From a virus: 64,000 nt of DNA. The translations under genes and the position numbers were made by a program. Shown here piece after piece: positions 6,113 to 19,428 of the stretch. The DNA lies in the IMG/VR virus record IMGVR_UViG_3300025466_000023, positions 17,519-81,518 of that record. One strand, 5' to 3'. Each line of letters opens with the position of its first letter. Position 1 is the stretch's first letter. The notes below the pieces were generated by a model. The model did not search any database, was not told the DNA's origin, and saw only the letters and a list, made by a program, of their open reading frames with translations.

Positions 6113-6442
6113 TTACACGGAGAATGAACTACCACATCCACAAGTTGTTTGGGCATTGGGATTTTGGATTACAAACTGACTGCCGCGAATATCTTCTTTA
6201 TAGTCTAATGTTGCTCCAACAAGATATTGATGGCTCATAGAATCTATTAGAACAGTAATAGAACCTTTTGTGATTTCAAAATCATCTTCGTTTACTTCGC
6301 TGTCAAAAGTAAAGCCATATTGAAATCCTGAGCAACCGCCGCCCTGCACAAAACATCGAAGTTTTAAATTAGGATCATTTTCTTCTGCCAACAGATCGGC
6401 TATTTTATCTATACACGATTGAGTTACTGTTATTTGTTCCAT
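6113..6442 (-). CDS. erpA: A-type iron-sulfur carrier, ErpA-like
   Basis: A 109-residue A-type carrier with all three cluster-binding cysteines: C37 in [13 protein letters not shown], and C101 and C103 in [25 protein letters not shown] is closer to ErpA than to IscA. It should accept clusters from IscU and deliver them to apo-enzymes. It overlaps the 2OG oxygenase gene by 1 nt in an operon with IscU. The canonical IscA type is encoded at 7813-8139, so the window has both A-type branches. Confidence 0.92.
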
Positions 6443-7035
6443 TATATTTTTATTACTAAAGATTCATCCCAACCAACTTTTGCAACTTTTTCATATTCTA
6501 AATTCCAACTTATTGCAAGTCTAAGCCGTTGTTGATCTTTATTCGTATTTATGGGCAAAACCATATGCATCAAATAACCTGGGAATAGAACTGCATGCAT
6601 TTTTTGAGGAGTGTAATAAAAATCCGTGCAATTTCCATGCACTTCTCCTCTGTAATCCGTTACTGTACCTCTATAAAAATCTTGGGAACCCCTTGGATCT
6701 ATAAAACATATATCGCCCCCACCTTCAGTTACGTAGAATGTTCCGACCATCCATGCTCCTGGATGACAATGATTAGGTATAAAATGAGTAGGCTCGGATA
6801 TAACTCTTGCCCACGCTCTATTAAACACTATATAACCATCTGTGTATCCAACTGATATAGCATATTCTCTAGCAGAAGATAATATTCTTCTTAAAAATAT
6901 TTGACTTTCATTAGAAGTCAAAGCCATCGGATCTAAATTAACTTTCATCAATTGGTAAGACATTTCTACTATAACAGTTTCTATGTCAGCCCAATCGTCG
7001 ATCCAAATATCTGTAGGGAAAAGGGTTTTTTTCAA
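6442..7035 (-). CDS. 2OG-Fe(II) oxygenase between IscU and ErpA, 197 aa
   Basis: A double-stranded beta-helix oxygenase with [20 protein letters not shown] (HxH iron site), FIDPRG, the distal His in [12 protein letters not shown] and the arginine-containing [12 protein letters not shown]. This architecture fits the phage 2OG-FeII_Oxy_5 type. It overlaps the IscU gene by 4 nt and the ErpA-like gene by 1 nt, so it is translated as part of the Fe-S operon. The substrate is unknown. Placement suggests it either consumes the same iron pool or acts on an Fe-S pathway client. Confidence 0.82.
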
Positions 7036-7412
7036 TTATTTTTGTTTTTATAATCTGCTACTGCGGCTTTGATTGCGTCCTCTGCGAGGATTGAGCAGTG
7101 GATTTTAACAGGTGGAAGAGCCAGCTCTTCGGCGATGTCACTGTTTTTAAGAAGTCCCGCTTGGTCGATGTGCATTCCTTTGATCCATTCAGTAACCAAT
7201 GAGCTGGAGGCAATTGCTGATCCGCATCCATAAGTCTTGAATCGTGCATCTTCTATAATTCCTTCTTTGTTTACTTTGATCTGTAATTTCATTACATCGC
7301 CACAAGCAGGTGCTCCTACCATTCCTGTGCCAACTCCCTCTTCGTCTTTAGGGAATGAACCCACGTTGCGTGGGTTTTCGTAATGATCAATTACCTTGTC
7401 TGAATAAGCCAT
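7032..7412 (-). CDS. iscU: Iron-sulfur cluster scaffold IscU
   Basis: A full-length 126-residue IscU/NifU_N scaffold. Residues align one-to-one with bacterial IscU: C37 and D39 in APACGDV, C63 in TYGCGSA, H105 and C106 in KIHCSIL, plus the chaperone-binding LPPVK motif at 99-103. It assembles [2Fe-2S]/[4Fe-4S] clusters from sulfur delivered by a cysteine desulfurase. No IscS, HscA or HscB gene is seen in this window, so it presumably docks with host partners. It is next to a 2OG oxygenase, two A-type carriers and four radical-SAM genes. Confidence 0.96.
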   Translation of the reverse strand: MAYSDKVIDHYENPRNVGSFPKDEEGVGTGMVGAPACGDVMKLQIKVNKEGIIEDARFKTYGCGSAIASSSLVTEWIKGMHIDQAGLLKNSDIAEELALPPVKIHCSILAEDAIKAAVADYKNKNN

Positions 7413-7812: not shown

Positions 7813-8139
7813 ATGATTACACTAACAGAGCAAGCCCAAAAGAAAGTTTTATCGCTATTATCACAACGTGGTAAGGGGGCAGGTATCCGTTTAGGAGTTA
7901 AAACAACCGGTTGCTCTGGACTAGCTTATGTGTTAGAATATGTAGACGAGTACACTCCGGAAACAGGTGTTACCAACTTTGCCCATAACGAGTTTTGTGT
8001 GTTAGTTGACCACAAGAGCCTAGCTTATATGGACGGAATGGTTGTAGATTGGGTTCGCAACGGACTCAACGAGGGTTTTGAATTCCAAAACCCCAATGAA
8101 CGTGACAAGTGTGGTTGCGGAGAAAGTTTTAGAGTCTAA
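7813..8139 (+). CDS. iscA: A-type iron-sulfur carrier IscA
   Basis: A 108-residue IscA with C34 in KTTGCSGLAYVLEYVDE and C100/C102 in DKCGCGESFRV, plus the GLNEGFEFQNPN signature. It closely follows E. coli IscA in length and motif order. It is divergent from the IscU operon and converges on the radical-SAM operon, overlapping the PhyH stop by 4 nt. With the ErpA-like gene this gives the phage two cluster carriers. Confidence 0.95.
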   Translation: MITLTEQAQKKVLSLLSQRGKGAGIRLGVKTTGCSGLAYVLEYVDEYTPETGVTNFAHNEFCVLVDHKSLAYMDGMVVDWVRNGLNEGFEFQNPNERDKCGCGESFRV

Positions 8140-8943: not shown

Positions 8944-9711
8944 TCAGTCTCTTGTTAATATTTTTTCTTCAACCTTATCCCAAAAAGCTATTCTAGATTT
9001 TATAGCTGTAATTGCGGTATGTTCTGCTTCAATTATTTTTAAAGGATGATTCTCGCATAGTTCTTCTACTAAGTTGATAGAAGCTGGCCCGTGACTATCT
9101 CCATCTACTTCAATGTGTCTTTCTAGATAAAATGCAAATCGACTAGCTTCTATAGAATTAAGATCTAACTGAGCAATTAATCTTTGAAACATAGCAGGTA
9201 TTACTGTTTCTCTACCGTAAGTAAAGGCCGCCGCTATTTCGTGTACCTTTCCTCTTTGTATGATATCAAAAGTAGTCCTCATAAATTCTTGACTAGGGTC
9301 CGGAATAAAAGAATCTATCAAAGCAAAATCTATTCCTTCTTTTTCAACAGATTCTAAAAATTTCATTATGGGTCTAGTATCAGCGCCAATTTCTGCCATT
9401 GTTTGGCAGTATAGGTCAAAGTGACTAATGTGAGAATTACGAAAAGGATCTATATCGCTTTCTTCTGATAATATTATTTCGTTAATCAACCTGCCTAGTT
9501 TACGTTGTCTTGCTGAAGGTAACCACAGATCTCCGCTAGGACATATACGATGCTGTAGTGCCTTAGCCAAGCTCATAAAATCCCAAACGGCAAACACATG
9601 ATGCTCCATAAAGATTTTAAGGTCGTCGATAGACTGTATGGTATTAGTAACCAATAGAGAATGGTTTTCTAATAGGTGTTTATGCTGGTTGACTTTGGAT
9701 ATCTTTAGCAT
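8944..9711 (-). CDS. DUF3050 protein, heme-oxygenase-like fold, 255 aa
   Basis: Signatures HHVFAVWDFMSLAKALQ and FYLERHIEVDGDSHGPAS match the DUF3050 family, which belongs to the heme-oxygenase-like superfamily that includes TenA-type proteins and several diiron oxidases. Conserved His/Glu residues on the expected helices (HHVFAVWDF, FTYGRETVIPAMF, FYLERHIEVDGDSHGP) could bind two irons. The biochemical role of DUF3050 is not established to my knowledge. It overlaps the radical-SAM gene upstream by 32 nt. Presence in a phage is unusual. Confidence 0.78.
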   Translation of the reverse strand: MLKISKVNQHKHLLENHSLLVTNTIQSIDDLKIFMEHHVFAVWDFMSLAKALQHRICPSGDLWLPSARQRKLGRLINEIILSEESDIDPFRNSHISHFDLYCQTMAEIGADTRPIMKFLESVEKEGIDFALIDSFIPDPSQEFMRTTFDIIQRGKVHEIAAAFTYGRETVIPAMFQRLIAQLDLNSIEASRFAFYLERHIEVDGDSHGPASINLVEELCENHPLKIIEAEHTAITAIKSRIAFWDKVEEKILTRD

Positions 9712-11011
9712 CTTGTATCCCTGTTTCTACTAATTCAACGTCTTCGCCAAACAACAGTTTCAGTGCGGCATTTTGAACAGCACCGTAATAGACTTTTTCA
9801 TTTCTACAGTTTTTTAAAAAAACCTCGTCTGGAAATTCAATAGGACAACTAGATTTGCACAATCTTCTTACGTTACAATCTGCACAATGAGTTTTTTTTC
9901 TATTTAGATCCAACTGTACGATACGTATGCCTTTGAGATTATTAATAGTTCCTGCAATATACTTTTCATTTGTATGAGGACAAAGTCTCACGTTTCCTTG
10001 TACATCTATACTGAGCACGTCGCCCGCATCGGCTCCGCAGTTGGTAGTCATAGTAACCGGTATTTGATTCCTCATACTTAATCCGTATTGTACGGCTCCA
10101 GTCCTACTATCAAAAAGATTAGACTCCATTAGAGGAAAGTTTTTGCCTTTGCCTAGTTTGTGTAATTGCTCTATGCGAGCATCTAAGTATCTATTGATGA
10201 TCTTCTTAAATTCTAAAGTATCGTCACCGGTCATTACGTGATTGGTGCTGTTTTGACTATCTGTTTCATCATACGTCCGTCCTAATGTAAAACTTAAACT
10301 AGGAAATTTTAATTCTAAGCGATCACTAACAACTTTAAACCAATTGTTTATTGCAAACAGATCATAATTTTGTTTACTGATCACACAATTAAAACTATAC
10401 TGTACTTTAGGATATAGTGCATCGATGGCTTTAATTGCACCAGCAACAGATTCTTTATCAAATATATCATCACCTCGAATAAACTGTCCAGGTCCGTCAT
10501 GACTAATACCTATGTTTACTACAGCAGATAGGCTTTGGAAAAAGTCTACATGTTTTTGTCTTAGTGGGCTTCCATTAGTGCTGATAAAGAAATGTCTTTT
10601 AGGACCATCTAAATGTTTCATTACTGGTTGTATGTCGTTCCAGTACAAAAATGGTTCGCCACCCCATAGTTCTATTCTTTCTAAGTTTTCTAAATCCAAA
10701 TATGTATCTATAGACTCTATGAACTTATCTAACGCAGTATTCTTACTGCGTTCGTCGGGGTTTCCAATATCTTTCTGCATGCAATAATCGCAAGAATAGT
10801 TACAGGCATGTCCAAATAAAATACGCAACGCAACAGGTTTATTATGTTTCTTTCTAGTCCCGTGTGTCTTTTTGGCTTCTTCATAAAACTCTAACGGTTT
10901 TTCGGCAGGAAGGCTTACAGTTTCTCCTGCATCGTTTATGAGAGTGTTATTGTCTACATCATAGTAAACAACTCTGCCGCTTTGTTTTAGTTTAAATTTG
11001 CTTAGACTCAT
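9680..11011 (-). CDS. Radical SAM protein with SPASM domain, 443 aa
   Basis: The start is placed at ATG 11009-11011 (MSLSKFKLKQSGRVVYYDVD), giving an ATGA overlap with the gene upstream. An N-terminal small domain (about 60 residues) precedes the radical-SAM core with C70, C74 and C77 (HACNYSCDYC) and LWGGEPFLYW near 117, the SAM-binding GGEP. The C-terminus has a SPASM-type cysteine set: TTNCGADAG, VRLCPH, HCADCNVRRLCKSSCP and a final NC. It therefore probably binds one or two auxiliary [4Fe-4S] clusters. SPASM enzymes modify ribosomal peptides or proteins (for example thioether or C-C crosslinks, or formylglycine). It is the most downstream of four consecutive radical-SAM genes. Confidence 0.9.
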   Translation of the reverse strand: MSLSKFKLKQSGRVVYYDVDNNTLINDAGETVSLPAEKPLEFYEEAKKTHGTRKKHNKPVALRILFGHACNYSCDYCMQKDIGNPDERSKNTALDKFIESIDTYLDLENLERIELWGGEPFLYWNDIQPVMKHLDGPKRHFFISTNGSPLRQKHVDFFQSLSAVVNIGISHDGPGQFIRGDDIFDKESVAGAIKAIDALYPKVQYSFNCVISKQNYDLFAINNWFKVVSDRLELKFPSLSFTLGRTYDETDSQNSTNHVMTGDDTLEFKKIINRYLDARIEQLHKLGKGKNFPLMESNLFDSRTGAVQYGLSMRNQIPVTMTTNCGADAGDVLSIDVQGNVRLCPHTNEKYIAGTINNLKGIRIVQLDLNRKKTHCADCNVRRLCKSSCPIEFPDEVFLKNCRNEKVYYGAVQNAALKLLFGEDVELVETGIQDAKDIQSQPA

Positions 11012-12078
11012 TTTTTCTCTATTATTGGAATTGCGTTGACTTGATCCGGTTTGATCAGACCAAATTTGCATTTAATCCAACCGCTTTCTATAAGACTGTT
11101 ACAGTATCTAGTGTATGGTTTTAACATTATTCCCGGAATAAAGTTATAGTCATAGTTTACTTTATATGTATCAGTTAATTTGAAATATTCTCGAAACTTT
11201 GGATTATTTGTTTTTTCAATCCAATTTAAATAACGGCGCTGTTTGCCTTCTATCAACTTTATTAGCAACAGATCTTTATTAAATGGCTGTGATAAATCGT
11301 CTACGATCCACCAAGGCTCTTCACTTATATCGCTAGCATCATCGCTAGAAAAATAGAATCTATCATAAAACAAATGCGGGGCTTCCCGCTGTATTTGAAT
11401 TAATCCGTCATCTGTGCTATCAACCCATGTGTTTTGTTCTTCTGCCCATTGATGTTCTAGTATTCGTCTTTCGGCACTAAAATCATGATGTACCATATTG
11501 CGCATGCCATTTTTATTAGCATACTCAATAACGGGTTTTAGAGATTCTATATCTCCACAATCAACAAATTTGATTTTTCTAATAGGACTTGCATCGTTTA
11601 GTTTAGATAGTGCATCAAACAATTTATTTTGATTAACACTTTCTGCAAACTTAGAACTAATACTAATACTGGCTATGTTTTTAAACTTTATATCTTTAAT
11701 CATTCTAGCTGATCTAAAGATAGCATTGTCTGTAAAACTATATTCCATATTGTGAGCATGTGCTTGATACCAAGCAAATTGTTTTGGATAGTTTAGTTTA
11801 AGGAACATCATGTCGTCGGCTGTGCTAACAACTAGAAAATTGCTAAAAGCATCTTGCCAAAAATGTTCAGCTTTGCTGGTTATTTCTGGAAAATAACTAG
11901 GTAGGTTGTTTTTAAGATGTTTAAAATTTTTATCTATGTAACAGATTTTACAACCTGCATCACAATAATATCTAGTTCCCAAACTAAAATAGATATCATA
12001 ATTAATTGAACATAGAGAATCCTGAGATAGCCAATACTCATTGAGATCTATTGCTGTTTCAAAATTCCCATCTATCAT
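11008..12078 (-). CDS. Divergent radical-SAM-like protein, 356 aa
   Basis: The N-terminus has CDAGCKICYIDKNF with C39, C43 and C46 in exact CxxxCxxC spacing, preceded by GTRYY as in many radical-SAM proteins. No GGEP motif or clear SPASM cluster is visible. The middle contains SISISSKFAESV and KIKFVDCGD, plausible strands of the partial TIM barrel. It may be a catalytically distinct or substrate-binding partner of its neighbours. ATGA overlaps at both ends make it the central gene of the radical-SAM set. Confidence 0.7.
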   Translation of the reverse strand: MIDGNFETAIDLNEYWLSQDSLCSINYDIYFSLGTRYYCDAGCKICYIDKNFKHLKNNLPSYFPEITSKAEHFWQDAFSNFLVVSTADDMMFLKLNYPKQFAWYQAHAHNMEYSFTDNAIFRSARMIKDIKFKNIASISISSKFAESVNQNKLFDALSKLNDASPIRKIKFVDCGDIESLKPVIEYANKNGMRNMVHHDFSAERRILEHQWAEEQNTWVDSTDDGLIQIQREAPHLFYDRFYFSSDDASDISEEPWWIVDDLSQPFNKDLLLIKLIEGKQRRYLNWIEKTNNPKFREYFKLTDTYKVNYDYNFIPGIMLKPYTRYCNSLIESGWIKCKFGLIKPDQVNAIPIIEKK

Positions 12079-13184
12079 TGTTTAATTTCAAATCCTTCTG
12101 TAATACCTACCCAGTCGACTAAATTCTTTTGTTGTTTAAGTTTATCCGTATGCATGATTGCAAAGTTCATTATCTGATAAAAATACTTGCAATTGCCTTT
12201 AGGTTCCTCGTTAAACATTTTATACATATACTTCAATCCACAACTAGCACGACTAGGACAAGTTACGCATGAAGGCAATATCTTATCATCGTCGCCTATG
12301 TCTTTCCAAACCACAGGAGTATCTGTGTCCCACTGTCCTGTTCTAGCTTCGTCTCTGCGATATTCTAACCATTCAAATTCTGGATAGATATAACCGTCTG
12401 GCCCTAATATTAATTTACTATGTTCTGCAAAATAGGCCTTGTCTATAAACTGATAATTTCCATCTATGAACACATTAATTTTTTTAATATAGAGTATTTG
12501 TAAGAACTCTAAAAATGCTTCAAAGAACTGTTTTAAATCAATGTTGTCAACTATCACATCGAATTTCTGTTTTCCTCGTTTATGTCTTAGCGGAATTATG
12601 TTTACACTAGTACATCTAGTAGTATAACAGGTATTGACAAAATTAGCAATATTATTAAAACTAAAACTTCTACGATCATCTATTGGTAAAACCCATTGCC
12701 ATTTCCATTGTTCGCAATTTTCATTTAGCACCTTGGCCATAGCTTCAACATCAAATGATTCTCTGTTTTGCTCTTGGAACATGAAATCATAACTAACTGT
12801 TGCGGCCAGTATACCTTTATATTTTTCAAAGAACTCTTTGTTTTCCACTACCAAAGATCCATTTGTAGTCATGCTAACTAGCCAGTTATTCCTACGTGCA
12901 ATAGGTTCTAGCCATTCCATTATCTCATACATCCGCTTAATAAACAGCAGAGGTTCACCTCCATGAAAGGAGATTCTAGTTATACTATTTGTTTGTTTTT
13001 CTGCCCAAAGAAAGAAATTCTTTAGTTTGTCAACTTGCCGAGGCCCTACTGATTGTCCACCAAGGTCCTCGATATAATCTCTATCGCAATAAACACAATC
13101 AAAGTTACATTTATTACCTAGGTATATTGTAACTATGCGTATTTTATCTAAGGGATTAGGATTTACTAGATTTATTCTTGACAT
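12075..13184 (-). CDS. Radical SAM protein, 369 aa
   Basis: C26, C30 and C33 in LGNKCNFDCVYCDRDYI form the radical-SAM cluster site, and ISFHGGEPLLF at about 72-80 is the SAM-binding motif. VSMTTNGSLV is another typical core strand. The C-terminal CVTCPSRASCGLKYMY and a later NCKYF look like a twitch/SPASM-type auxiliary cluster site. It starts 29 nt inside the preceding gene and overlaps the following gene by ATGA. Predicted to be a peptide- or protein-modifying enzyme (inference from family). Confidence 0.88.
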   Translation of the reverse strand: MSRINLVNPNPLDKIRIVTIYLGNKCNFDCVYCDRDYIEDLGGQSVGPRQVDKLKNFFLWAEKQTNSITRISFHGGEPLLFIKRMYEIMEWLEPIARRNNWLVSMTTNGSLVVENKEFFEKYKGILAATVSYDFMFQEQNRESFDVEAMAKVLNENCEQWKWQWVLPIDDRRSFSFNNIANFVNTCYTTRCTSVNIIPLRHKRGKQKFDVIVDNIDLKQFFEAFLEFLQILYIKKINVFIDGNYQFIDKAYFAEHSKLILGPDGYIYPEFEWLEYRRDEARTGQWDTDTPVVWKDIGDDDKILPSCVTCPSRASCGLKYMYKMFNEEPKGNCKYFYQIMNFAIMHTDKLKQQKNLVDWVGITEGFEIKQ

Positions 13185-14916
13185 TTTTAATCAACCTGTG
13201 ATTAAATGTTTCTGTAAGAGCTTTAGTTTCAGACTGTAATATTATTAAATGCAACAATCCTAAGAAAAATGCTCGTTGAGCAGGATCTAGTGTTTGACTA
13301 TCCATTTTGTTATCTGTTGGTGCTATGCTTCCTTTATCTAAAATAAAGTAATAGAAATCACTAATTTCCATAATACTGTCATCAACTAAACTTACAATTT
13401 CTTTAACAAAATTATTAGCACCTTGGGTAAGATTTATTTCTAGATTCATTATTTTACGCCACAGTGATAATAGTTTTCTATAATCATCAATTTCATCTAT
13501 TCCGTTATGGACTTTATCTAAAGAAGGATGGTAATTATAAAAATAATAAAATAACAAATAACTTAATCCTCTAACAAATGCAGGATGTTCGCCCATTGTT
13601 TGTTGTGCAGAAACAATCTTTTCAAACTTCAATTTAAACTGTTTTTTAGCAACGTCTTCTTGCAGATCAACAAACAACTTAACAATTTTTTGACACATGT
13701 CGTCCGGACGAAACATTTTTGTTCCTGTGTCCAAATTGCCAGCAGGACATTGATAGCAGGCATTTTTGTAATCACAAGTTTGACATTGTTCTTCTTCCTC
13801 AAACATCTTAGCATATTCTTTTTGGAAGTTTCTATATCTATCAATATAGATTTTGTCTTGCCAAAGGTTACCTAATATTGTTTCGCCTGTAGGGCCTGCC
13901 TTTTGATTAGTAAAGAAATAGCATCCGCTAAAGTCACCTGATCCATCAATAGCAATCATGTCTGCACCAATCATGCAGTTTTCTTCGCCCTTCTGTCCTA
14001 CCCCTTCTGAAAAGTGTATGGTCATATCTTCGTGTTCTTCTAGTACTGCTACTATATCATCGTGCAGTTTTTGCCATTCTTCTTCTCGCCATTGAACGAA
14101 TCCTCTAGCACTATCTAATACTAATGGATGAACGACTATTCTGCGTATACCTCTAGAATATAAATTGTCAACAAAGTCTCTAAAATAAGGAGCATTTTCT
14201 CTAGCAAGAGTAATCCTCATTGTAACACGTTTTGCGGCTTTAACATCTGCGGGCATACGACTTATGCAGTCCATTACTTTATCGATATCCTTCTGCCCGA
14301 TTTCTCTATGGTCAACTTCAGAGCGATTTGTATCAAGACTGATTAATACTCCTGTAAAGTCGTATGAAAAATATTCATTTATAAATTCATCTGTTAACAA
14401 AATACCGTTTGTTACCAGACCAATTACTGTATTTGTTTCTCCTGTACAGGTTAGAGATATTTCTTGTTCATTGGTCTTTAAGAATTGAAGTATTAGCTCT
14501 TTGTGTATCAAAGGCTCACCGCCAAAGAACTGAAACACTTTACGTTGTCTTTGGTTGCTGTCTCTAAGGAATCTAAATGCCGTTAGTAGACTTTCATTTG
14601 TAAATCTACCAAAGTCTTTGTTATGCTGTTCGTAACAGTACGTACAACTTAGATTACAAGCATTGGTTAATATTAAATTCATCTGCTTCAAATCTTGAAA
14701 CAAAAATTTACTATCTTTAAAACTTAATATTTGTTCAGTCGGCTTAGGTAGTACGCTTACAAGTCTGTTGGTTTTTTCTAACCCTTTAGGGGTTATAATA
14801 TTTGAGCTATGATATGCAAAGGATCCGTCTTCTGAAACACTAACACTAGATTTATGATCTAGGAATCTTTTCTTTTGTGCTTCAGTTTTGATCCAGGCAA
14901 TTGGATGTTCTGCCAT
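13156..14916 (-). CDS. Radical SAM/SPASM protein with C-terminal helical domain, 586 aa
   Basis: I choose ATG 14914-14916 (MAEHPIAWIKTEAQKKRF), which overlaps the TAA of the cysteine-tail gene as TAATG. The radical-SAM cysteines are C87, C91 and C94 (NACNLSCTYCYEQHN), and GGEP lies at about 132. SPASM cysteines are in EENCMIGAD, GCYFF, CQTCDYKNACYQCP and DDMCQ, resembling anaerobic sulfatase maturases and peptide maturases. After residue about 400 there is an extra helical domain of about 180 residues with no recognised family. It is the first enzyme translated after the putative substrate, the classical order for peptide maturation operons. Confidence 0.9.
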   Translation of the reverse strand: MAEHPIAWIKTEAQKKRFLDHKSSVSVSEDGSFAYHSSNIITPKGLEKTNRLVSVLPKPTEQILSFKDSKFLFQDLKQMNLILTNACNLSCTYCYEQHNKDFGRFTNESLLTAFRFLRDSNQRQRKVFQFFGGEPLIHKELILQFLKTNEQEISLTCTGETNTVIGLVTNGILLTDEFINEYFSYDFTGVLISLDTNRSEVDHREIGQKDIDKVMDCISRMPADVKAAKRVTMRITLARENAPYFRDFVDNLYSRGIRRIVVHPLVLDSARGFVQWREEEWQKLHDDIVAVLEEHEDMTIHFSEGVGQKGEENCMIGADMIAIDGSGDFSGCYFFTNQKAGPTGETILGNLWQDKIYIDRYRNFQKEYAKMFEEEEQCQTCDYKNACYQCPAGNLDTGTKMFRPDDMCQKIVKLFVDLQEDVAKKQFKLKFEKIVSAQQTMGEHPAFVRGLSYLLFYYFYNYHPSLDKVHNGIDEIDDYRKLLSLWRKIMNLEINLTQGANNFVKEIVSLVDDSIMEISDFYYFILDKGSIAPTDNKMDSQTLDPAQRAFFLGLLHLIILQSETKALTETFNHRLIKNVKNKSSKS

Positions 14917-15185
14917 TACAATGTACCACGAGTGCAATCACATTGACATTGACAATCGCAAACAGTAGTAAAATCATCATAATAAGTGTGAGTATGATTT
15001 ACAAGATTATTAAGAACGTTTGCCATTGCGGCAAATGTTGAAGCCGAAATACGTTGTCCAGACCCCACAGTTCCAGGTACGCTTACGCCTTGATTAGGTG
15101 CGGAAGTATAGTTAGCGTCCACGTTTCCGTCGGTTACGATCTGTGCATCTACTGTTGCGGTATTTGTTGAAGTTGTATCAGCCAT
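14916..15185 (-). CDS. Small HxH-module protein with alternating-cysteine tail, 89 aa (candidate modification substrate)
   Basis: The N-terminal 40 residues are Thr/Asn/Val-rich. Residues about 42-68 (GSGQRISASTFAAMANVLNN, then LVNHTHTYY) form a module also found twice in the virion-like protein at 19051-19428. The C-terminus reads TTVCDCQCQCDCTRGTL, with Cys at 76, 78, 80, 82 and 84. HxH motifs in trimeric phage fibre tips such as T4 gp37 bind iron. Immediately downstream, coupled by TAATG, comes a radical-SAM/SPASM gene. It could be a virion tip protein whose cysteine tail binds metal, a ribosomally made substrate of the radical-SAM enzymes, or both. A TATAAATA late promoter and GGAG SD precede it. 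Confidence 0.75.
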   Translation of the reverse strand: MADTTSTNTATVDAQIVTDGNVDANYTSAPNQGVSVPGTVGSGQRISASTFAAMANVLNNLVNHTHTYYDDFTTVCDCQCQCDCTRGTL

Positions 15186-15187
15186 AA

Positions 15188-16225
15188 TTAATCTCCAGTG
15201 TATTTATAACTGCTATTTCGATAAACATCTAAAGTGACTACGCATTTGTTTTCTAGTCCACCTAGACTTCTAGCTGTCTGTGAAAGACCCATAACAGTAT
15301 TTTCATTCCATCTAATGTGTATATACCCTTGTTCTTGTCCATCTTTAAACTCAAAATATACCTTATTACTGTCCGGATCTCTAGTCCAATTTAGGTTAGA
15401 TATTACTTTAATGTTTACTTTTGGAACTTCTTCTTGATAGCGCCACTGAAAAATGCTGTTTCCGAATGGTTTTAACCAAAACTTATCACCCGCAACAATT
15501 TTAGAATTACCTAAATAGGCAATATTCTTGCTCATTGAGGGTCTAAAGATTATGTCTCCTATAGACCCAAAATGTGCCTCCGTAGTCCAAAACCTAACTT
15601 CTTCATCTTCCTCTGTATCAAAATACGGAGAAATAGCTGTTAAGTCTGGATTAGGCACTAGATAATAGATAGGCAGTTCTCCTGTTCTATATAAGAAAAA
15701 CCATACAATACTTAAAACTTTGCTAGAGCCCGATTTGACCAAAGAACGATCGGGTAAGTAGACAAATTCTGATTTCAAATGACCTTCTATTGTCTCTTCA
15801 TTTTGTGCTAACCTATTTTCACTATCGAGCAATCGAGTAATCCATCTACTGTTGTTAGTAATATATTGATTATCAACATTAGTATTTTCATCAAATACTG
15901 TAGCAAAGGCAACACTTCTGCTAGCAGGATCTTCATCTAAGTAATCAAATGCAGTCTGCATATCTATGTCAATCGAAAGTCTTTCTCTATTAGGCAGATG
16001 TTGTTTAAAGAAGTGATACAACGTTAGCGTAGATTCTTTAGTTTTATTTCTACCTATAGTGATATTAAAATTATTCTTTGAAAAACAAGATAATCTTTGA
16101 TAATAATCCCTTGCTTCCCATATACCTAATCCCTTGTAAAATCCCCCTACATTCCACGCATTTTGTATATCTCCCCAAGGAGTTGGATAATGAGGCAACT
16201 GTTGCACTATTACTGTTTTTTTCAT
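15188..16225 (-). CDS. Unknown protein, 345 aa
   Basis: No family recognised. The sequence is mixed alpha/beta and aromatic-rich, with a YYLVPNPDLTAIS segment that recalls IYYLVPQGGDQTIY in the virion-like protein 19430-19990. The C-terminus (NKCVVTLDVYRNSSYKYTGD) is beta-like. It could be a structural component or an accessory of the biosynthetic operon. Start by ATGA overlap with the MaoC-like gene. The late promoter for the cysteine-tail gene lies inside its last codons. Confidence 0.65.
   Translation of the reverse strand: MKKTVIVQQLPHYPTPWGDIQNAWNVGGFYKGLGIWEARDYYQRLSCFSKNNFNITIGRNKTKESTLTLYHFFKQHLPNRERLSIDIDMQTAFDYLDEDPASRSVAFATVFDENTNVDNQYITNNSRWITRLLDSENRLAQNEETIEGHLKSEFVYLPDRSLVKSGSSKVLSIVWFFLYRTGELPIYYLVPNPDLTAISPYFDTEEDEEVRFWTTEAHFGSIGDIIFRPSMSKNIAYLGNSKIVAGDKFWLKPFGNSIFQWRYQEEVPKVNIKVISNLNWTRDPDSNKVYFEFKDGQEQGYIHIRWNENTVMGLSQTARSLGGLENKCVVTLDVYRNSSYKYTGD
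15201..15208 (-). promoter_or_regulatory. Late promoter TATAAATA before the cysteine-tail gene
   Basis: Perfect TATAAATA on the minus strand, followed by CACTGGAGATTAATT and the ATG at 15185. One of the few late boxes here that leaves a proper leader with an SD. It separates substrate plus radical-SAM genes from the upstream half of the operon. Confidence 0.65.
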
Positions 16226-16590
16226 TTTATTGATACCTTTAATATCTTCATACTACCTGTAAATCTAATATCTTCATGTACTTTAACATCGATATTAATA
16301 TATTGTATTATACCTTTGTTGGTATTACGTTCTTTCATTAATGTATGCCTTACTGTTATTGGTTCGTCTAAGTATATAGATTTTTTAAAACGAAACTGTT
16401 GTTCAATTAACCAAACAGTAAAATAATTAATATCTGTTTCACCCAATGCCTTGGCCGCGGTTAATAAACCAGGCACTACTACTCTATCAGAATCTGCTCG
16501 ATGCTGTGGGTTTCTATCGTTTCCCATCGCACAAAATGCAGTTATTTCTTCTTGAGTTACTTTAATAGGAAATTCAACATAGCCTATCAA
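16222..16590 (-). CDS. MaoC-like hot-dog (R-specific hydratase/dehydratase) protein, 122 aa
   Basis: The motif GNDRNPQHRADSD followed by VVPGLL matches the active-site Asp/His segment of MaoC-type enoyl hydratases (xDxNPxHxD), and YLDEPITVRHTLMKE fits the later hot-dog strands. Such proteins hydrate or dehydrate acyl-CoA or acyl-ACP. The in-frame start is TTG at 16588-16590, with GGAG correctly placed upstream; there is no usable ATG. The gene overlaps the upstream gene by 17 nt. Together with the beta-ketoacyl synthase it suggests acyl-chain chemistry. Confidence 0.8.
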   Translation of the reverse strand: MIGYVEFPIKVTQEEITAFCAMGNDRNPQHRADSDRVVVPGLLTAAKALGETDINYFTVWLIEQQFRFKKSIYLDEPITVRHTLMKERNTNKGIIQYINIDVKVHEDIRFTGSMKILKVSIK

Positions 16591-17401
16591 TTACATCTCC
16601 ATAGGTCATTGTTATTCCTAATGCAGACAAAGATAATTTGATCATATCAAGTTCTCCATCTGTTACTTGATTACAATAATCCGCATCGATAAATTCTAAA
16701 GTGTATGTTCTAGTAGTTGACTCTTCTGTGTCAACATCAGATGCTGAGCCGCTGAACATGAAACCGCTGTGTTCTACTTTAGAAACCCACTTGACCATAA
16801 ATGCTTGTTCGATGCTATCACCTGGACTAATCTTGGGCGGATACTTAATTGTTTTTGGAATCTCAATACTAATATCTCGACTCCACAATTTGTTTGGATT
16901 GCTGTCTATACAATGATATTCAGCGATAGCCAAGTGCGTTCTATCAAAACAACTAGAATTAAAAGCAGAATGAAAACGACCCGCTGTGTTATATCTATAA
17001 CCATACCCGTCAGCCCGTGTTGGAAAAACTTCTGTTTCTTCAAAATCAAAAAAGAAACAACCGGGATTATCATTAATGTGTAAATGATATTTGTTATCAG
17101 GATCCCTATGCCAACGAAGGCACTGATTAGGAATTAGATTTAGAAATGTTCCTCGACTGACTTTAATTGGTAAAGACCTAATAAACTTTTCAAATACAGT
17201 TCCTTGTATCTCAGGCACAACATTTGGGTTTTCGATATAAAAATACTTAAGGCGATCGACTCCCTCTTTTGGTAAACAAGCATTCAGCATGCCCATTCTA
17301 CTCATGTTATGTTTGATAGCGTTCCATTCTTCTAACACCTGCTGGGGATCGACACGTACGGCAGTACGTTCGATAATATTACGCATAAACTGTCTACTCA
17401 T
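16574..17401 (-). CDS. Aspartyl/asparaginyl beta-hydroxylase-like 2OG oxygenase, 275 aa
   Basis: The segment LRWHRDPDNKYHLHINDNPG carries the HxD iron ligands, AGRFHSAFNSSCFDRTHLAI carries the distal histidine, and the following R-H is in the place of the 2OG-binding arginine. This is the arrangement of Asp/Asn hydroxylase-like phage proteins. A roughly 100-residue C-terminal extension is not recognised. TAATG coupling to the small gene upstream. The likely substrate is a protein or carrier-bound amino acid (inference). Confidence 0.78.
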   Translation of the reverse strand: MSRQFMRNIIERTAVRVDPQQVLEEWNAIKHNMSRMGMLNACLPKEGVDRLKYFYIENPNVVPEIQGTVFEKFIRSLPIKVSRGTFLNLIPNQCLRWHRDPDNKYHLHINDNPGCFFFDFEETEVFPTRADGYGYRYNTAGRFHSAFNSSCFDRTHLAIAEYHCIDSNPNKLWSRDISIEIPKTIKYPPKISPGDSIEQAFMVKWVSKVEHSGFMFSGSASDVDTEESTTRTYTLEFIDADYCNQVTDGELDMIKLSLSALGITMTYGDVIDRLC

Positions 17402-17727
17402 TATGCTCGTGTCCTAATGCTAGTGTTGTGTATTGAAATGTAGGTTTCTAAATCAAAGTGTCCAAATGGATTATTATCAATTTGTTCAGCTATTTCGTAT
17501 TCTAAATCACCGTACCAATTATTTTCCTTGGCAAACTGTTCCGGGTCACAATGCAGTTTTTCAGCTTGTTTATAGGCACTATAAGTTCCTACAACATGTT
17601 GATGTTCATCATATTTTAAACATACAGCAACTAACACGGCTAGATCACGTGAAGATTTTGTCCATGTATATTCTATTTTTTCTAAGTTGCCCGTTCTATG
17701 TCTAGAAGGTCTTTCACGTGAAAACAT
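17401..17727 (-). CDS. Unknown small protein, 108 aa
   Basis: A soluble, charged protein without a recognised domain. It is first in the coupled operon, behind a TATAAATA late promoter and a GGGG-type SD (AAGGGGTTAAACAATG). The stop overlaps the next start as TAATG, so it is very likely translated and co-regulated with the oxygenase downstream. Confidence 0.65.
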   Translation of the reverse strand: MFSRERPSRHRTGNLEKIEYTWTKSSRDLAVLVAVCLKYDEHQHVVGTYSAYKQAEKLHCDPEQFAKENNWYGDLEYEIAEQIDNNPFGHFDLETYISIHNTSIRTRA

Positions 17728-17751
17728 TGTTTAACCCCTTATTATTAGCGG

Positions 17752-17759
17752 TATTTATA
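17752..17759 (-). promoter_or_regulatory. Late promoter TATAAATA heading the redox operon
   Basis: TATAAATA followed by CCGC on the minus strand, 24 nt upstream of the ATG at 17727. It lies between the ketosynthase stop and the start of the overlapping ten-gene operon. Confidence 0.65.
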
Positions 17760-17777
17760 AGTGCTACTTTAATGATT

Positions 17778-19004
17778 TTAAAATGCTGGTATACCGACAA
17801 CAACAGACGAACATTTACCACCAAAACCGTAGGAGTTTTTAACAAAATGAGATTTAGTTATTGTTTTAGTAGACTTTACGATTGTAATGTCTTTTTCGAA
17901 TTCACAACTGGTAAAATTAGCCACGGGTGGCACTTGTTTAGTTTCTAAACTTTTAATTCCATATATAAGTTCTATAAGACCACTAGCACTCATTGTATGA
18001 CCTATATGGCCTTTATTGCTAGTAATATATGCATTGGGAAATAATTTGTTCATAGCATCGTATTCTATTACATCTCCGGCAGGTGTAGATGTTGCATGAG
18101 CCGACACAAATGCAATGTCATCTTCAATAACTCCACTTCTAGTTAATGCCTGAACTGTGGCACTGGTTGCTCCCATACCATCTTCAGTTGGACTTGTAGG
18201 ATGTGCGGTTTCTGTATAAAATCCTATGCCACATATTTCAGCAAGAATAGTAGCACCTCTAGCCTGTGCATGTTCTAAAGTTTCTACCACAACAACTCCT
18301 GCACCTTCTCCTAAAATAAATCCATCACGTGTATCGCTAAAGGGTTGGCTAATATAATCTTCATCGCGCTTGCTCAATGCACGTAAAACTTGGAAGAAGT
18401 ACATATCGTATTTTTCAACCATAGCATCAGTACCACCAACAACTGCTATGTCACAATCCCCTGCGGCTAAGCATTTAATGCCATAATCTAAAGTGTAGAT
18501 TCCCGTAGCACATGCACTAACCATTACTGTGCTAGGACCATGCCACCCGTATTTGGCCGCAACTGCACCCGTAGTAAAGTCATAGCTAATGCCTAATGTT
18601 TGAAATGGGTTGGCTTTAGTTTTGCCAGAATTGTAAGCTATTTCGACTATGTTTCTAGCATCGTTGCCGCCACTGATACTAGATATTAATGTAGCTACAT
18701 TGGTAGTAGTAAATCCACTTTGTCTAACTGCTTCGTCTACGGCCAACATTGCGGCCTTGGTCAATAAGGGCCAATTGCGTGACTCGTGTTCTGTATAAAC
18801 TGTTTGTTCTAATTGGTCTAGATCGGGAAGCTCAAAGGCTCTATGGACTAGCATGGCGGGATCTGTACGAGTATCCCAACTATCGACCTTAGGGGTGGGC
18901 TGTTTACTGTTGAACAATTTGGTAAAGGTATTATCAACACCAGAACCTAGTGAATTTACTAGGCCCATGCCTGTGATAACAAATCGTGTGCTGGGAAGTT
19001 TCAT
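17778..19004 (-). CDS. Beta-ketoacyl-[ACP] synthase (FabF/KAS II-like), 408 aa
   Basis: A complete thiolase-fold ketosynthase with the nucleophile C165 in VSACATG, H303 in SAHATSTPAGD, K331 and H336 in NKGHIGHTMSASG, and the C-terminal NSYGFGGKCSSVVVG. Length and motif order match bacterial FabF. It would catalyse decarboxylative condensation of malonyl-ACP with an acyl chain. No acyl carrier protein, ketoreductase or acyltransferase is seen nearby, so it must use host ones if it elongates chains. Its ATG is 8 nt from a TTAAATA box. A ketosynthase in a T4-like phage is unexpected. Sequence features look intact and catalytic. Confidence 0.94.
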   Translation of the reverse strand: MKLPSTRFVITGMGLVNSLGSGVDNTFTKLFNSKQPTPKVDSWDTRTDPAMLVHRAFELPDLDQLEQTVYTEHESRNWPLLTKAAMLAVDEAVRQSGFTTTNVATLISSISGGNDARNIVEIAYNSGKTKANPFQTLGISYDFTTGAVAAKYGWHGPSTVMVSACATGIYTLDYGIKCLAAGDCDIAVVGGTDAMVEKYDMYFFQVLRALSKRDEDYISQPFSDTRDGFILGEGAGVVVVETLEHAQARGATILAEICGIGFYTETAHPTSPTEDGMGATSATVQALTRSGVIEDDIAFVSAHATSTPAGDVIEYDAMNKLFPNAYITSNKGHIGHTMSASGLIELIYGIKSLETKQVPPVANFTSCEFEKDITIVKSTKTITKSHFVKNSYGFGGKCSSVVVGIPAF

Positions 19005-19050: not shown

Positions 19051-19428
19051 TTATCTAGTTGTATTATCGTTTTCGTAGTGTGTATGACCAGCAATAGTGT
19101 TTAATACACTGATTGCGGCATTTACTCCGGCCGCAGAAATTTGTTGCCCTGAGCTAGCAGTTCCTATACTTATTGACTGTGCGGGGCCATTAGTGTTGTT
19201 TGCAACACTATAAGTGTTCCTATCACCATTACTACCAAATGTAGCTTCTTGCTCGATATCAGTCCAGCTATGATAATGGCTCGCAAACTGATTAATAGCA
19301 TTGCAAATACTGTTAATGTCCGAGGCATTAATTCTGTTTCCCGAATAAAAAGCGCCTGTGTTAGGGCTCGGAGTACCTGCTTGCCAATTTGGACCGCCTG
19401 TAGTTCCCGTTCCTGAACCTGTTCCCAT
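19051..19428 (-). CDS. Virion-like protein with two HxH modules, 125 aa
   Basis: Gly/Thr/Ser-rich N-terminus, then two copies of a roughly 30-residue module. The first is YSGNRINASDINSICNAINQ ending in HYHSW. The second is SSGQQISAAGVNAAISVLNT ending in HTHYE. The same module occurs once in the cysteine-tail protein 14916-15185. Small fibre or needle proteins often have this composition, and HxH pairs in trimers can bind iron. It follows 19430-19990 by 1 nt and probably belongs to the virion. Confidence 0.68.
   Translation of the reverse strand: MGTGSGTGTTGGPNWQAGTPSPNTGAFYSGNRINASDINSICNAINQFASHYHSWTDIEQEATFGSNGDRNTYSVANNTNGPAQSISIGTASSGQQISAAGVNAAISVLNTIAGHTHYENDNTTR

Follow-up and report, generated by a model that had tools for sequence, protein, structure and literature searches.

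Ranthipeptides and sactipeptides, ribosomally synthesised and post-translationally modified peptides (RiPPs) with maturases of the CteB and PapB types, have a short Cys-rich C-terminal core encoded beside a radical S-adenosylmethionine (rSAM) enzyme with a seven-Cys SPASM-type region. Pelagimyophages, which are T4-like aquatic phages, have also been noted to carry cassettes of rSAM genes in their host-recognition cluster, within the tail-fibre region, and the accessible part of that source gives neither a substrate nor a function for them (PMC7029224). In addition, HxH sites coordinate iron in the gp37 fibres of T4 and have been proposed to do so in marine phages, along with the Ferrojan horse idea (PMC11705849). 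Here we analyse a stretch of 64,000 nucleotides (the window), positions 17,519 to 81,518 of the 81.5-kb IMG/VR virus record IMGVR_UViG_3300025466_000023, in which an open reading frame (ORF) for an 89-amino acid (aa) protein ending in CxCxCxCxC adjoins a cassette of rSAM genes. Our reading is that a RiPP-like rSAM pathway probably modifies the Cys tip of a virion protein, which is then displayed on the particle.

The locus is like the ranthipeptide and sactipeptide systems in its short Cys-rich C-terminal core beside a seven-Cys SPASM-type enzyme. Unlike in those systems, the core alternates as CxC and sits on a virion-like protein or a tail fibre, and the cassette is phage-encoded, comprises several rSAM enzymes, has no recognised leader protease or exporter and does not reach the NCBIfam cut-offs. 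The location of an rSAM cassette in a tail-fibre region is shared with the pelagimyophages, whereas the Cys-run partner is new as far as could be found. The HxH motif in a fibre-like module is likewise shared with the iron sites described in phage fibres, but here a conserved Cys run and an rSAM cassette accompany it. The open-access literature searched contained no description of virion proteins being modified by rSAM enzymes. The genes concerned are the following:

14916..15185, (-) strand: small HxH-module protein with a CxCxCxCxC-xRGxx tail, the presumed substrate; 46 further contigs carry the tail
14919..14960, (-) strand: region encoding the conserved tail CDCQCQCDCTRGTL
19051..19428, (-) strand: HxH virion-like protein with two module copies and no Cys tail
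13156..14916, (-) strand: rs1, rSAM enzyme of 586 aa with seven invariant C-terminal Cys (SPASM-type); PF04055, 3.7e-17
12075..13184, (-) strand: rs2, rSAM enzyme of 369 aa, conserved in the cassette; PF04055, 1.4e-9
11008..12078, (-) strand: rs3, rSAM-like ORF with a near-invariant CxxxCxxC; no convincing Pfam and no NCBIfam match
9680..11071, (-) strand: rs4, rSAM/SPASM enzyme; phrog_1802, of a lineage common to other CxC-run systems
8944..9711, (-) strand: DUF3050 protein; PF11251, 5e-81, adjoining the cassette in other contigs

The 89-aa ORF starts with ATG, is preceded by a GGAGA site and is the only one with a CxCxC run in the whole 81.5-kb contig. The protein ends in CDCQCQCDCTRGTL, of which longer extracts are ...DDFTTVCDCQCQCDCTRGTL and TTVCDCQCQCDCTRGTL. 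Its stop codon overlaps the start of rs1 as TAATG, so that rs1 begins at 14916, and the ORF upstream (15188-16225) stops 2 nt before its ATG. A preliminary description of this DNA had pointed to the alternating five-Cys tail, to a module in common with the protein at 19051-19428 and to coupling with an rSAM/SPASM gene. All three were borne out: the tail is present and conserved in relatives, the HxH module is common to both proteins (25/51 identical, E value 4e-10) and the TAATG overlap joins the two genes. Where that description named one rSAM gene, an adjoining one is present, but three PF04055 genes and a divergent CxxxCxxC ORF actually follow. Both HxH proteins match phrog_31780; a virion-family search with the 89-aa protein returned only this family and, weakly, phrog_35576, both with annotations that name no function.

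Relatives ending in H.H..YDDY.T-C.C(.C)n-RG were found in 46 IMG/VR contigs besides the window. These contigs encode 37 distinct proteins with three to six Cys in the tail and none elsewhere, and therefore the tail is not a product of chance. In the 32 relatives with five Cys, the intervening positions hold no residue other than E, D, N, Q or A, and the last spacer, before RG, is G, S, T or N. The ratio of non-synonymous to synonymous polymorphism (pN/pS) was 0.16 for HxHxFYDDYxT, 0.30 for the Cys run and 0.45 for the upstream part. The 37 distinct proteins thus show the organisation of RiPP precursors, in that the N-terminal part varies while the modifiable C-terminal core is conserved; the HxH motif is conserved too. 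A search for the tail only, blind to rSAM genes, gave 35 stretches, consisting of the tail family and one unrelated protein (L058). In INPHARED, no relative was found of the 89-aa protein, of a protein from another set of Cys-run loci (family B, L098) or of the L284 scaffold.

Genetic association between the Cys run and rSAM genes is strong. PF04055 was present in all 46 tail-bearing records, the window excluded, and no tail-bearing record without an rSAM gene was found among them, which agrees with the co-occurrence expected in the preliminary description. By comparison, 0/50 random viral records were positive; these came from a neutral seven-Cys DNA pattern scan, which was itself dominated by repeats and yielded no genuine protein family. 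Precursor and enzyme genes lie side by side, with 25 of 40 same-strand pairs separated by 60 bp or less and the others within about 2.2 kb. A search with rs1 returned 33 loci, 32 of them with a small tail-bearing ORF (three, five or six Cys). In L031 and L032 (15084-15290), the tail peptide is on the opposite strand from the rSAM genes and still adjoins the rs4 end.

The association was also seen beyond this family, so that the substrate-beside-maturase layout first proposed for the 89-aa gene extends to unrelated Cys-run loci. A scan for NCNC.C.C.C, again blind to rSAM genes, gave 71 real ORFs among the matches listed, on about nine unrelated scaffolds, and the record contained an rSAM gene for 67 of these 71 (Fisher test, 1e-29). 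Within the same list, the four contigs without an rSAM gene end 161-1198 bp past the run, and 8/9 records with matches that were not genuine lack one. In the reverse direction, the enzyme of Achromobacter phage JWF and L058 as query retrieved 534 viral relatives, and an adjacent Cys-run ORF was present at 74 of the 80 loci kept, which are of the rs4 type and make up family B. As the contigs are related, these counts are not independent events, and the p-values should be read as measures of association and not of separate origins. A run scan of genome contigs returned chiefly repeat DNA, with L401, L452, L459 and L468 as useful exceptions.

CxC motifs are ordinary metal ligands, and the tip could be a plain metal-binding or disulfide-stabilised structure of HxH plus CxC, left unmodified while the rSAM enzymes act on another molecule required by these phages, such as a host RNA or a metabolite. 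The iron coordinated by HxH in T4 gp37, with its proposed counterpart in marine phages, agrees with such a tip (PMC11705849). Nevertheless, on about nine unrelated scaffolds the run and the rSAM genes are closely linked, whichever of the two is taken as the starting point, the SPASM enzymes are nearest to peptide maturases and a tip that only binds metal has no need of three to four rSAM enzymes, so we consider this explanation quite unlikely.

The position of the run was compared in 75 run proteins. In 67 of them it lies 9 residues or fewer from the C-terminus, and in the remaining 8 it stops where a self-cleaving S74 or Hint domain begins. An extension of about 98 residues follows the run in L122, where testing showed an S74 chaperone that begins at S130, and in L299, L328 and L348, which have the same extension sequence; in JWF (C308), L315 and, judged by its sequence, L320, the extension has about 175 residues and begins like a Hint domain. 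Some family-B and JWF-type proteins thus carry the domains known from self-cleaving fibre ends right after the run, with the particularity that the expected cleavage point is the end of the Cys run. If these domains behave like other members of their families, cleavage would leave the run as the mature C-terminus. The scaffolds form about nine similarity clusters, several of which match tail-fibre PHROGs. In the cultured phage JWF, the tail fibre gp028 has NCNCDCNCNCS directly before its Hint domain (run region ...RQNCNCDCNCNCS) and an rSAM gene, gp030, two genes on; this arrangement recurs in the cultured Achromobacter phage 2-1. The L058 protein, of an 'MTLPATG' tail type, ends in YNCACACACACACDSGGGG and has one adjoining rSAM gene. 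At L297 (758-2084), three successive Cys-run ORFs, one of them with a Hint domain, precede a single rSAM gene.

This placement also bears on whether the 89-aa protein could instead be the precursor of a free RiPP, either secreted or antibacterial, with the HxH region merely as its leader and no part in the virion. The precursor-sized gene, the maturase order and the short conserved tail would fit, as would a pair in a bacterial metagenome-assembled genome of Erysipelotrichaceae (L468, 221-1465), where a 58-aa ORF ending in NCNCDCNCDCSSDD lies 22 bp before a gene for a 348-aa rSAM enzyme; this pair possibly represents a RiPP from outside phages that has a similar core. Against such a product, none of the cassette genes, several of which lack an assignment, was recognised as coding for a protease or an exporter, the leader-like region is common to a virion-like protein, and elsewhere similar runs are on tail-fibre proteins with self-cleaving fibre chaperones. 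We therefore judge a free RiPP very unlikely.

As to the enzymes, the invariant Cys of rs1 are C87, C91 and C94, forming a CxxxCxxC motif, and C314, C332, C378, C381, C387, C390 and C408, the seven of a SPASM-type region. Its best NCBIfam match was PapB (4.6e-34), with 118 bits to the family NF047865, for which the curated cut-off is 340 bits, making rs1 a relative and not a member. The best solved relative was CteB, both by sequence (5wgg, 2e-21) and by fold (5why, 1.7e-14, from a model with a mean predicted local distance difference test score of 78.9). A tree of 76 rSAM sequences placed the window family's rs1, rs2 and rs4 in one clade each and grouped rs4, but not rs1 or rs2, with JWF and most other run-associated enzymes. 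On the basis of this tree, rs4 appears a better candidate than the adjacent rs1 for the step common to CxC-run systems. The preliminary description had taken the adjacent gene as the maturase; rSAM genes do lie beside the tail, but the assignment to rs1 becomes doubtful. The rSAM enzymes of Vibrio nt-1, Campylobacter CP220 and Thermus phiLo fell outside the main rs4-type group, on long branches of unsure placement. No close JWF-type rSAM enzyme was found in PLSDB.

The enzymes might also modify the tip without forming thioethers, for example by epimerisation or methylation that would produce an unusual backbone, a variant that is compatible with the other parts of our reading. Epimerases of the rSAM class leave an alternating pattern, which the strict alternation of the run resembles, and some loci hold an additional rSAM enzyme, about 675 aa long, which on a sequence impression only looks cobalamin-type. 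However, the nearest relatives, CteB and PapB, form thioethers, and the conserved Cys are the expected thioether donors; non-thioether chemistry consequently seems somewhat unlikely. The additional enzyme is upstream of the cassette in L030, L033, L034 and L036, all with three-Cys tails.

Several points weigh against modification of a displayed Cys tip. The relatedness of the contigs limits the counts, as mentioned above, and the comparison with HxH proteins that lack the tail rests on truncated contigs. At L037, rs1 is beside ribonucleotide reductase genes with no tail in view. Support for joining rs4 with the other run enzymes was only moderate (88/88). Among the 80 family-B loci, about 35 carry a domain of about 170 aa after the run; because of these loci, a C-terminal tip would not be universal unless that domain is removed. 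Cys-run tail proteins with this C-terminal domain, which has no Pfam or PHROG match, are found at L138 (5206-6108) and similar loci. Finally, the sequences show the tail and its conservation, the cassette, the co-occurrence with rSAM genes and the position of the runs, whereas the modification, its chemistry, the virion location and the role are inferred.

The wider neighbourhood of the cassette contains further genes:

15188..16225, (-) strand: fast-evolving companion gene, in relatives often between the substrate and rs1
6113..6442, (-) strand: IscA-like Fe-S (iron–sulphur) assembly gene
7032..7412, (-) strand: NifU_N Fe-S assembly gene
7813..8139, (+) strand: IscA-like Fe-S assembly gene

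Fold comparison of the companion gene product gave no confident fold and no match with an E value below 0.001, and the DUF3050 protein resembled haem-oxygenase-like iron enzymes only below the threshold (Haem_oxygenas_2, 0.008). The Fe-S assembly genes possibly support the rSAM enzymes, which would fit the load of several Fe-S enzymes; among the loci read, only one other distinct relative (L013) has this set, L007 being nearly identical to the window. Between the HxH protein and the peptide (16222-19004) the window encodes a FabF-like ketoacyl synthase, an ORF weakly similar to MaoC and two conserved ORFs without an assignment, and L012 has the same gene set plus a desaturase-like ORF. Long (giant) fibre-like genes are located to the left of the window, beside the cassette, and the closest relatives of the terminase are from jumbo Pseudomonas phages, PA5oct among them (about 54%).

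In the mechanism that we propose, the 89-aa protein would be a small virion protein of the tail or fibre, the N-terminal part of which, with its helix-HxH module, would dock it on the particle and present it to the enzymes. The C-terminal CxCxCxCxC-xRG tip would be the target of the phage-encoded rSAM pathway, with rs4 probably as the core enzyme and rs1 to rs3 and the DUF3050 protein adding steps. These enzymes would crosslink or otherwise remodel the Cys tip, most likely through thioethers, and the modified tip would be shown on the virion, probably for contact with a receptor or a metal. A metal-linked role is plausible by analogy, as HxH sites bind iron in T4 fibres.

For tailed phages at large, we regard it as an even call whether many of them, on unrelated scaffolds, use rSAM enzymes to give receptor-binding proteins a non-standard tip, crosslinked or metal-holding, at the mature C-terminus, and so obtain post-translationally a receptor-binding chemistry beyond the reach of the genetic code. 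Our results suggest that many uncultured and at least two cultured phages chemically remodel their own particle tips with rSAM enzymes, a reading that is directly testable in the cultured phage JWF. If it is true, phage particles would carry rSAM-made chemistry at their tips, the rSAM cassettes already noted in aquatic phages would gain a function, and a large new set of maturases and peptide cores would be at hand.
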